Positions 43,048 through 45,926 of a stretch of 46,682 nucleotides of DNA are shown piece by piece. The first letter of the stretch is position 1. The number at the start of each line of letters is the position of its first letter. The stretch lies in IMG/VR virus record IMGVR_UViG_3300049595_001259, positions 1 through 46,682 of that record. One strand, given 5' to 3'. This DNA is from a virus. The position numbers were made by a program, and so were the translations under genes. The notes under the pieces were generated by a model that ran no database searches, had not been told where the DNA came from, and saw only the letters and a program-made list of their open reading frames with translations.

Positions 43048-43758
43048 ATGTCATTACCGAAAATTGACTACCCTGTATATAAGATAAATGTTCCTTCTTT
43101 GAAAAAGGACTATCAGTTTAGACCCTTTTTGGTCAAAGAAGAAAAGTTATTATTAATGGCAAAGGAAAGCGATAATCAAGCTGATATCCTTTCTGCTATT
43201 AAACAGGTAGTTAATAACTGTTCTGTTGACCCAAAATTAGATGTCGGTAAACTAGCTTTATTTGACATTGAGTTTATCTTTTTAAAACTTCGCTCGGTTT
43301 CTGTAGACAACGTGGTTAAAGTTTCTTATAGAGATTCAGAGGATAAGAAGGTTTACGACTTTGACATCAATCTAGACGAAGTTAAGGTCAATTATCCAAA
43401 GAAGTTGGATAACAAGATAAAAATAACGCCACAGTCAGGTATTATAATGAAATACCCTTCGGCGTCGCTATATGATGATACTGATTTCTTGAATCTAGAA
43501 AAAGATTATATGTTTGAGCTTATCATTAGATGTATTGATTCCATTTATTTTGAAGATCAGATTTATGAATGCAAAGATTATAAGAGGGAAGAACTGAATG
43601 AGTTCCTGGAAAACCTGAATATCAAGACCTTTGAACAGGTCCAGAACTTCCTGTTGAATGTTCCTAGAATGGAATACAAGATAATCTATCAAAATGAACT
43701 TGGGAACGATCGTGAAATTGTATTGTCTTCGTTAAACGATTTTTTTACGTGGCGCTGA
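43048..43758 (+). CDS. gp26: Baseplate hub assembly protein gp26; zero-frame part of a putative frameshift pair
   Basis: T4-like gp26 (T4_baseplate family; 236 residues, T4 208). Family text: IDYPVYKINVPSLKKDYQFR, PFLVKEEKLLLMAKESDNQA, ILSAIKQVVNNCSVDP, KLALFDIEFIFLKLRSVSVD, YMFELIIRCIDSIYFEDQIY. T4 gp26 is placed with the hub, but its small size, position and partner gene suggest a tail-assembly chaperone role. GGAG lies eight bases before its ATG. It ends LNDFFTWR just after a T-TTT-TTT run; a -1 shift there would join it to gp51, giving a protein of about 294 residues. The following gene is the tape-measure-like protein. Confidence 0.88.
   Translation: MSLPKIDYPVYKINVPSLKKDYQFRPFLVKEEKLLLMAKESDNQADILSAIKQVVNNCSVDPKLDVGKLALFDIEFIFLKLRSVSVDNVVKVSYRDSEDKKVYDFDINLDEVKVNYPKKLDNKIKITPQSGIIMKYPSASLYDDTDFLNLEKDYMFELIIRCIDSIYFEDQIYECKDYKREELNEFLENLNIKTFEQVQNFLLNVPRMEYKIIYQNELGNDREIVLSSLNDFFTWR
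43740..43746 (+). promoter_or_regulatory. Putative -1 ribosomal frameshift site (T TTT TTT)
   Basis: Seven T in a row, placed in the zero frame as X-XXY-YYZ (GAT TTT TTT ACG). Zero-frame gp26 stops at 43756-43758. The -1 frame is open from 43716 through gp51 to 43931. Re-pairing after one base back gives TTT TTT TAC GTG GCG, continuing into gp51. I see no strong stem-loop just downstream. Confidence 0.6.
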
Positions 43759-43931
43759 GTCATAGTACATTATCTAATTATTTTGCTACTATATTCTCTT
43801 TGGCTCAGCACCATAAATATTCAATTAGTGAAATAGAATCTATGATACCCTTTGAAAGAGATATATACGTTCAAATGCTCGTCAACTACTTAAAAGAAGT
43901 AGAAGAAGCTAAAAAGAAAAGCAGCGGATAA
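43749..43931 (+). CDS. gp51: Baseplate hub assembly catalyst gp51; -1-frame part of a putative frameshift pair
   Basis: Small gp51-type protein (60 residues if begun at GTG 43749; text SHSTLSNYFATIFSLAQHHK, ISEIESMIPFERDIYVQMLV, NYLKEVEEAKKKS). The helix with MIPFERDIYVQML is typical of gp51 in T4-like marine phages, where it is much shorter than in T4 (249). In T4 gp51 acts catalytically in hub assembly and is not in the virion. There is no purine-rich ribosome site before the GTG; the preceding 20 bases are AT-rich with the T run. So it is more likely made as a gp26-gp51 fusion by -1 frameshifting, or by coupled re-initiation near the gp26 stop. Confidence 0.8.
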   Translation: MALSHSTLSNYFATIFSLAQHHKYSISEIESMIPFERDIYVQMLVNYLKEVEEAKKKSSG

Positions 43932-43934
43932 CAA

Positions 43935-45926
43935 ATGGCCATAGAAGCAGAAGAATTAGCGGTAATATCTAGAAGCATTAGAAATGCTGGAGTTGAAACT
44001 GCAGGCGAATTCCGTCAAGCAGCCAATACCAGCAACGCTAATCTCAGCAGAATAGTCAAAGATATTTCTACAACCTTCAAAGCACAGAGAGAAGATATCG
44101 CAGATCTTCATAATGTGCTTGAGGAAATGGTTTCTGAGTCTCAGCAAACTGGTAACAAAATTGACAGTCTAAATTCTCTATTCAGAGAGTCTTTAGAAAT
44201 ACAAAATTCTATGCGCACCGAGATGAGCAATGTTACCAAAAACACTCGTATTCTCAGCGGTGACATTGAATCTTTAAACCGTAACATTATGAATAATACC
44301 AGCAGTGGGTTGTTGGGAAGTATTTCCAATCTAAGCACAGATTTTGCTAAGCAACTAGCATTAATGGGAGTTGGAGCTGCTGTAGCTGGTGGTGGTATGG
44401 CAGCATTAGGTGGCCTTGGTGGTGGTATGAGTCAAGCAATACCTTTCAGCGGTCCAAACAAACCAATTCTTGATACGATTAAAGAAAGAGAATCTAGTAA
44501 CAATTATCAAGCGCAAGCAAAAACAAGTTCTGCTAGTGGCGCATACCAATTCATCGATGAGACTTGGCAAACCTGGCAAAGAAAATCTGGTGTAGGAACA
44601 AATTATGCTAGAGCAAAAGATGCTCCTCCAGAAATTCAAGATAAAGTTGCTGATGCTTATGTCGCTGATATCCTAAAACGTGCAGGCGGAGATGTTTCTA
44701 AAGTTCCTTTAGAATGGTTCACTGGTAATCTACAAGGTCGTATGTCAGCTAAACAGCAGGCAGCTAATCCTGGTGTTACTGCAGAATCATATCAAGCAAA
44801 ATGGTTAAAAGATTTTTCTAAACATGGCGGACAAGCTGCCATGACTGCAGCAGCAACTCAAGTTCCTACAACTCCAACTACTCCAGCTGCTGCGCCTACA
44901 ACTCCTTCAGCAACCCCAGTATCAACTCCTGAAGTAATTCCTTCTGCTACTTCGTCAAGAGTTGAACAAATAGGTAAAGAAGGCGGACATGGACCAATTA
45001 GCGGTGTTGCTCATGAAGGACATGGCCATGGAGAACAAGTAAGTGCTTCATTACCTTCTGGTGATGTTGTTGCTCTTGGTCATGCTCTAGAAAAAATGGG
45101 AATGCGTATCTCTGAACATCCGCAGTTCGGCGGCGTTAAACCTGTTCATAAAGGTAAAGCGCATTATGAAGGCAGAGCAATTGATATCAATTTTGGTGAA
45201 GGTAACGTTGAAGCAAAGGATCCTGTTATGGGAGCCAAGTTTGATCAACTAGCCGAACAATTGACTAGACTAGGATATAAAGTTTATTGGAGAGAAAGCG
45301 GACCATATGCAGCTGCTGGTCATAATAATCATCTACATGCTGAAATTCCAAAAGGTGGGGCGCAGTCTGTTCCAGACACATATCAAATAGCAGGTTCGCC
45401 AGAACAAAGAGCGATGCAAGGAGCAACTCCAGCCGCTGGATCTACTGCATCTACTGCTCCGCCTGCAGCTACACCTATGGCGGCTGAACCAGTAGCACAA
45501 GCGCCTATATCTCCCGGAATTGCAGCCCCACCAGCTGGCGCAAATATGATGGGTCAAATGATGGGTATGATACCAGGAATGATGGGTGGAGGAATTGGTG
45601 GTATTGCAGGAATGTTACTACCAATGATTGCCTCAACTATACAATCAGAATTAGTATCAACACCATCGATGCCAGCATTGAACGCACAAGCATTAAACCA
45701 AGCTGCAGTTACTTCGCAAGCTACTGAACAAACAGTTCAAGAAGCTCAAGTTTCTTCGCACACCCCACAAGTCAATGCAGAACCAAATAGAATGCATAAT
45801 TCAAATCAAGCTGGATTTGCTTATAATATGCCAGGAGATATTGAGTGGCCAGATTGGGCTGGTATGCTTGGTGGCAATCATTACGAAGAAATGAATTTGT
45901 TTAAACCTAGAATGTCTAGAGGATAA
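43935..45926 (+). CDS. Tape-measure/hub-like protein with transglycosylase and M15-type peptidase domains
   Basis: Protein of 663 residues. Residues 1-125 are coiled-coil helices (ISRSIRNAGVETAGEFRQAA, FKAQREDIADLHNVLEEMVS). A Gly/Ala-rich hydrophobic stretch follows near 135-160 (LALMGVGAAVAGGGMAALGG). Residues about 175-290 form a lytic-transglycosylase-type domain (LDTIKERESSNNYQAQAKTS, SASGAYQFIDETW; candidate catalytic Glu in KERESSN). An Ala/Pro/Thr linker follows. Residues about 345-470 resemble an M15-type peptidase, with zinc-ligand-type text HYEGRAIDINFGEG and NNHLHAEIP. The rest is Ala/Pro/Met/Gly-rich. Size (T4 gp29 590), coiled coil and place after gp26-gp51 suggest the tape measure, ejected to cut peptidoglycan at entry. 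Confidence 0.8.
   Translation: MAIEAEELAVISRSIRNAGVETAGEFRQAANTSNANLSRIVKDISTTFKAQREDIADLHNVLEEMVSESQQTGNKIDSLNSLFRESLEIQNSMRTEMSNVTKNTRILSGDIESLNRNIMNNTSSGLLGSISNLSTDFAKQLALMGVGAAVAGGGMAALGGLGGGMSQAIPFSGPNKPILDTIKERESSNNYQAQAKTSSASGAYQFIDETWQTWQRKSGVGTNYARAKDAPPEIQDKVADAYVADILKRAGGDVSKVPLEWFTGNLQGRMSAKQQAANPGVTAESYQAKWLKDFSKHGGQAAMTAAATQVPTTPTTPAAAPTTPSATPVSTPEVIPSATSSRVEQIGKEGGHGPISGVAHEGHGHGEQVSASLPSGDVVALGHALEKMGMRISEHPQFGGVKPVHKGKAHYEGRAIDINFGEGNVEAKDPVMGAKFDQLAEQLTRLGYKVYWRESGPYAAAGHNNHLHAEIPKGGAQSVPDTYQIAGSPEQRAMQGATPAAGSTASTAPPAATPMAAEPVAQAPISPGIAAPPAGANMMGQMMGMIPGMMGGGIGGIAGMLLPMIASTIQSELVSTPSMPALNAQALNQAAVTSQATEQTVQEAQVSSHTPQVNAEPNRMHNSNQAGFAYNMPGDIEWPDWAGMLGGNHYEEMNLFKPRMSRG

Follow-up and report, generated by a model that had tools for sequence, protein, structure and literature searches.

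The window analysed here is the whole stretch of 46,682 bases that forms positions 1–46,682 of the IMG/VR virus record IMGVR_UViG_3300049595_001259, which comes from a T4-like phage. A gp26-like gene is located on the forward strand (43048–43758, +) and encodes a product of 236 amino acids, the predicted short form of a tail assembly chaperone, with matches to PF12322 T4_baseplate (1.1e-53) and phrog_150 (3.7e-57). It was the only PF12322 match in the record, which is possibly a fragment. The 3' end of the gene reads GAT TTT TTT ACG TGG CGC TGA, with the TGA at 43756–43758, and contains a slippery heptamer, T TTT TTT (43740–43746, +), in the X XXY YYZ phase and 9 nt upstream of the stop codon. 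The -1 frame is preceded by a stop codon at 43713–43715, is open from 43716, and ends at the TAA at 43929–43931. This gp51-like frame (43716–43931, +) matched phrog_634, 'baseplate hub assembly catalyst' (1.8e-25), and weakly phrog_150 at positions 228–278 of 282 (1.7e-5), a stretch lying nearly entirely past the end of gp26 itself. The post-shift part (43746–43931) would encode a long-form extension of 61 amino acids, and the predicted fusion, ...LNDFF|YVALSHST..., consists of 233 gp26 residues followed by these 61. The coordinates agree with the first-pass annotation, which had described an overlap of gp26 and gp51 in the zero and -1 frames with an in-phase T TTT TTT near the gp26 stop. Over the 13,819 codon positions of 27 ORFs in the window, in-phase TTTTTTN occurred four times, the gp26 site included, which puts the chance of finding one among the final ten codons of any one gene at about 0.2%.

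For gp51, the best start codon in the window was a GTG (43749), whose Shine-Dalgarno match is just 3 nt long. The first-pass annotation had seen no ribosome binding site for gp51, unlike its neighbours, a contrast that held for three of the four neighbours (the two upstream genes and gp26, with 4-nt matches) but failed for the next gene (43935), which also has a 3-nt match. The product of that gene (43935–45926, 663 amino acids) gave a weak tape-measure match (phrog_9483, 4.4e-4) in addition to transglycosylase matches, with a transglycosylase-like stretch near residues 176–242; instead of the tape measure that the first-pass annotation saw in it, this product may be a hub protein or a tail lysozyme. 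A tape-measure match at 0.001 could not be found in the 20 other ORFs scanned. A profile search of solved structures returned a single, unrelated match (E = 0.47).

Relatives were gathered from virus contigs by searching with four gp26 sequences, those of the window, S-PM2, AS-zj, and nt-1, and named phages were added, while a scan of genome contigs found no relatives; T4-type loci were gathered separately. The resulting 193 sequences (the window and 192 loci) included 176 with a frameshift-type gp26; the 17 T4-type loci, which lack a gp26 match on the + strand, were dropped at this step. When the frames -1, +1, and 0 were all scored against a gp51 profile made from 16 of the -1 frames, the best gp51 frame was the -1 frame in all 176 frameshift-type loci, the window included; counts over these loci are conditional on the frameshift type, since the loci were gathered by their likeness to such gp26. 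Clustering at 80% identity over the gp26 C-terminus gave 76 clusters, each of which was represented by one sequence. The heptamer was T TTT TTT in 38 representatives and T TTT TTC in 38. Conservation of the T-run and of the -1 phase in relatives, which had been proposed as a check on the reading, could thus be confirmed in 76/76 representatives of the 176 loci. The codon preceding the Phe pair was GAT in 41, TCT in 14, AGT in 11, AAT in 7, and GCT in 3 representatives; the encoded amino acid varies, while the wobble base was T in every case (76/76). Elsewhere within the same gp26 genes, one of 41 in-frame Phe-Phe pairs was slippery. Based on the genes' own codon usage, the joint chance of this codon choice was 10^-30.4, a value that treats the 76 related lines as independent.

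The sample was widened by 12 further phages, mostly low-scoring or from other families, of which 11 could be read. Rhizobium phage RL38J1 was not counted because its gp26/gp51 pair is cut by the record start; the record (L202, 1–320) begins near the end of the gp26 gene, inside an annotated 320-bp repeat. The gp51-like frame was the -1 frame in 11/11 phages, and T TTT TTN was present in eight of them (TTC in five; TTT, TTA, and TTG in one each). The canonical heptamer was absent in three of the 11, namely the Ackermannviridae phages Kuja, May, and MK-13 (L197, L200, and L201), whose gp26 genes end in AAC CTT TTT CAA TAA, GAG ATT TTC ATT TAA, and GAA ATT TTC ATC TAA, respectively. We take the May and MK-13 sites to resemble the T7 gene 10 site, G GTT TTC. 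In MK-13, an ATG overlaps the gp26 stop codon. A fourth record placed in Ackermannviridae, SH-Ab 15599, carries T TTT TTT. The same overlap without a slippery sequence, which the first-pass annotation had named as evidence against slippage, therefore occurs far away, in these three Ackermannviridae, and in none of the 76 representatives.

In -1 frameshift sites, a downstream RNA structure is found about 5–9 nt past the heptamer. The stimulatory stem proposed for the window comprises 9 bp, with a 5' arm (43754–43762, +) that is separated from the heptamer by 7 nt and includes the gp26 stop codon, and a 3' arm (43801–43809, +) within the gp51 codons for L-A-Q-H. It is part of the window's MFE fold, for which the energy as a whole was -22.2 kcal/mol (z -4.55). 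The window's own fold also contained an outer 4-bp extension of the stem (5' side 43749–43752, +; partner 43811–43814); across 37 sequences, two of these pairs were kept in 36 and 34, and the other two were unpaired in 17 and 29. Folding of the 60 nt from +12 (+12 to +71 from the heptamer start) against dinucleotide shuffles gave a mean z of -4.30 in 37 T TTT TTT representatives and of -2.16 in 38 T TTT TTC representatives, and in five other folding windows per heptamer group the mean z lay between -0.7 and +0.1. Against shuffles that keep the gp51 protein and codons, p <= 0.05 was reached by 34/37 T TTT TTT and 19/38 T TTT TTC representatives; the other 19 of the 38 T TTT TTC representatives did not beat these synonymous-codon shuffles.

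Comparative analysis of the 9-bp stem in 35 sequences of the window's clade revealed that 91.7% of the cells were paired, compared to 19–39% in slid-partner controls that keep relatedness. Two-sided (compensatory) changes could be observed in five of the nine pairs, in 22 cells. The stem pairing, the two-sided changes, and the covariation score were reached by 0/500 shuffles, which ignore relatedness; a further one of the five covariation measures, the number of further pair types, was reached by 109/500. RNAalifold kept seven of the nine pairs on the 35 sequences and six on 37. When two more remote T TTT TTT phages were added (alignment A2, 37 sequences) and the outer four pairs were counted as well, 82.7% of the cells were paired. 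L085 and L090, present in A2, were left out of the 35-row alignment A4 as separate lineages, and L028 is absent from the stem alignments because its locus ends early. The most variable stem pairs were those of columns 20/65 (GC 12, AU 11, GU 6) and 21/64 (CG 15, UG 10, UA 8); changes in these two pairs alter amino acids, so that protein coupling is formally possible for the stem. A scan of the 35 sequences for pseudoknot pairing of the stem loop with sequence further downstream gave a best 5-bp helix that was possible in 46% of them; this was unconvincing, and the pseudoknot was rejected.

RNAalifold did not detect a common stem in the T TTT TTC group, as represented by alignment A3 with 33 of the 38 rows (L086, L087, L089, L179, and L181 were left out), and individual folds gave differing local hairpins. 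An upstream Shine-Dalgarno-like stimulator is an optional, not a defining, component of -1 frameshifting. An upstream Shine-Dalgarno-like match of at least 4 was found in 33/38 members of the T TTT TTC group vs 27% of control sites, and in 4/38 members of the T TTT TTT group vs 21% of control sites, which is no excess. The Shine-Dalgarno-like stretch is in part due to the protein sequence, which has an invariant Gly three codons upstream, often preceded by Glu. The Glu codons at this stretch were GAG in 16 of 28 cases, compared to 27.5% in gene bodies.

Judged from the sequences, the gp26/gp51 pair is very probably one gene with a -1 programmed ribosomal frameshift. The proposal of the first-pass annotation that gp26 is fused to gp51 by -1 slippage, in the manner of G and G-T, is supported by the conserved heptamer, its phase, and the scarcity of gp51 ribosome sites. 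The main alternative is that gp51 is a separate gene, translationally coupled to gp26 by re-initiation in the -1 frame after the gp26 TGA, at GTG 43749 or at an overlapping start. Several annotators treat gp51 as its own gene, and a start search that began at the preceding -1 stop and ended 12 codons beyond the heptamer found ATG, GTG, or TTG in 35/76 representatives (ATG in 20, e.g., nt-1 and S-PM2), so that coupled re-initiation could also yield free gp51 there. However, the same span contains no ATG, GTG, or TTG in 41/76 representatives, and just 3/76 have a gp51 start whose Shine-Dalgarno match reaches 4 nt; a clear separate ribosome site in relatives, which the first-pass annotation had named as evidence against slippage, is therefore rare. 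Coupling also leaves unexplained the fixed T TTT TTY with its fixed wobble base as well as the stem 7 nt downstream, and the long form of T4 is a single continuous protein. We regard the separate, coupled gene as very improbable. The gp51 frame is unannotated in the three cyanophage records S-MbCM6, ACG-2014d, and ACG-2014h and in Aeromonas phage AS-zj (L081, L082, L083, and L086).

Frameshifted products could also arise by transcriptional slippage, in which RNA polymerase inserts or omits a U while copying the T run and produces mixed mRNAs, some of them in the gp51 frame. The seven consecutive T residues of the window, shared by half of the representatives, would suit such a process, but the other half has just 6 T followed by C, and transcriptional slippage in bacteria usually requires a run of about 8 or more. 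Such slippage also has no need of an X XXY YYZ phase or of a stem at constant spacing, and we hold it to be very unlikely. Least credible is chance or sequencing error, by which the locus would consist of unrelated overlapping genes or of one gene broken by a homopolymer indel. Homopolymers are indeed error-prone, and L191 shows one gene split into two ORFs; the same frame relation in 176/176 loci and 11/11 further phages, many of them sequenced independently, reduces this explanation to a negligible one.

Under programmed frameshifting, most ribosomes would terminate at the gp26 TGA and yield the short chaperone of 236 amino acids. A minority, delayed by the RNA stem 7 nt downstream, would slip back one base on T TTT TTT, with tRNA-Phe re-pairing in both the P and A sites; this slippage, its rate, and its stimulation by the stem are what we infer from the nucleotide sequence. 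The slipped ribosomes would then reach the TAA ending at 43931 and yield a long form of 294 amino acids with the gp51 domain at its C-terminus. By homology of gp26 and gp51 and by analogy with lambda gpG/gpGT, the short and long forms would act jointly as chaperones of the tail rod or tape-measure protein at hub and tail-tube initiation.

T4 genes 26 and 51 were compared with this arrangement. T4 gp26 and gp51 both matched PF12322 along the entire profile (8.8e-64 and 3.9e-52, respectively) and are therefore homologous to each other. T4 gp51 matched PF12322 at 1–201 and phrog_150 up to position 280 of 282, whereas T4 gp26 stopped at position 235 of 282; about 48 further residues of T4 gp51 matched the frameshift-encoded extension (phrog_634, 1.2e-23). 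An hhalign comparison of the gp51 frames of nine phages, including the window, with the C-terminus of eight T4-type gp51 sequences gave a probability of 95.8 (E = 6.6e-9). The two T4 proteins thus belong to the same family, gp51 with the long-form layout and gp26 with the short-form layout. The T4 genes lie back to back on opposite strands and are divergently transcribed as two separate genes, whereas the window has a single gp26 with a -1 extension. The Phe pair is kept at the end of T4 gene 26 as GAG TTC TTT GAG, which is not slippery. With a separate short gene and an in-frame long gene, T4 has no frameshift at gp26/gp51. The first-pass annotation had read gp26/gp51 as the T4-like version of the G/G-T pair, which would account for the catalytic action of T4 gp51 in hub assembly and its absence from virions; this needs correcting for T4 itself, whose gp51 is already encoded in frame with its C-terminal extension. 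T4 gp26 (L091, 3806–4429) also weakly matched phrog_1140, 'baseplate hub distal subunit' (9.4e-4), which is gp28-like by name, and the chaperone family may extend to gp28 as another relative.

PF12322 genes were counted per whole record, and one was found in 9/9 frameshift-type phages compared to two in 4/4 T4-type phages (T4, JSE, PSTRCR_127, and Aes508). Both genes were present in 16/17 T4-type loci, the exception being L176, a partial match. In the T4-type locus L191 (2501–3246), the long-form gp51 gene consists of two ORFs of 120 and 123 amino acids with an apparent frame break. A tree of 48 N-terminal domains, comprising 25 of the 76 frameshift-type representatives, 12 T4-type gp26, and 11 T4-type gp51, separated the frameshift type (99/97), T4-type gp51 (100/100), and T4-type gp26 (72/76). 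Near-copies of T4 and JSE (L174, L184, L185, and L186) were excluded from the tree, as was the broken gp51 of L191, which is shorter than the length limit. The Straboviridae phages nt-1 and AS-zj grouped with the frameshift type. The unrooted tree, in which the T4-type gp26 group is weak, is consistent with an order of events in which the T-even line duplicated the gene and so may have fixed each product in a gene of its own.

These results lead us to favour, by a modest degree, a broader account in which the slippery site of T4-like phages is fixed and its stimulators turn over. The window's clade would combine T TTT TTT with the 9-bp stem, which closes a 38-nt loop, and no Shine-Dalgarno element, and in the cyanophage-type relatives T TTT TTC would be accompanied by a Shine-Dalgarno-like element on its upstream side and by local hairpins that differ between lineages. 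The T-even line would then have lost the frameshift when the gene was duplicated, with 26 as the short copy and 51 as the long one. If this holds, one branch would control the ratio of short to long form at translation, and the other through gene expression. The frameshift arrangement was found in the sampled cyanophage, Rhizobium, Vibrio, Aeromonas, and other T4-like lineages. It gives gp51 a testable role, and the annotation would need correcting in T4-like genomes that leave gp51 unannotated or list it as an independent gene.

A 2010 article describes T4 gp51 as essential for hub assembly, missing from the finished particle, and without a known function; it also lists gp26 and gp51 as hub assembly chaperones and cites studies that place gp26 in the hub (PMC3004832). 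One short gene together with one longer fused gene has been described for some T4-like phages (PMC10274946, citing Vladimirov, Gautam and Davidson 2022), and poly-T slippery sequences are known in the TAC-N genes of T4-like phages (PMC12846349, citing Vladimirov et al. 2022). The idea is therefore not new, since both the T4-like layout and the poly-T chaperone sites are credited to Vladimirov et al. 2022. The published short and long genes would correspond to gp26 and gp51 by the profile matches obtained here; the consulted passages of PMC10274946 and PMC12846349 do not name them so. While the mechanism is already known in kind, no earlier report of the covarying stem of the window's clade or of the stimulator contrast between the two heptamer classes was found in print among open-licence papers. 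With the outline already published, the gain lies mainly in the breadth, the controls, and the stem.

The G/G-T pair of lambda adjoins the tape-measure gene, whereas the downstream neighbour in the window matches a tape measure weakly (phrog_9483). The lambda heptamer and stimulator differ from those of the window, and the likeness is one of arrangement, with no sequence kinship claimed. In both systems, a -1 slip near the end of the short form leads, or in the window would lead, to a long form with a C-terminal domain; neither lambda gpG nor gpGT is present in mature virions, according to a 2016 review (PMC5009743). The chaperone locus of phage Adele (Vandenendeviridae/Andersonviridae) resembles that of the window in its T-rich -1 frameshift site and in a -1 frame open through the locus, but it uses a GTTTTT motif instead of T TTT TTT, and the two are likened by arrangement and not by protein kinship (PMC12846349). 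According to the 2016 review, conservation of G-T frameshifting is widespread among long-tailed phages 'except T4' (PMC5009743); the comparative data presented here would place T4 within this rule, with the T4-type phages keeping both products as two genes.
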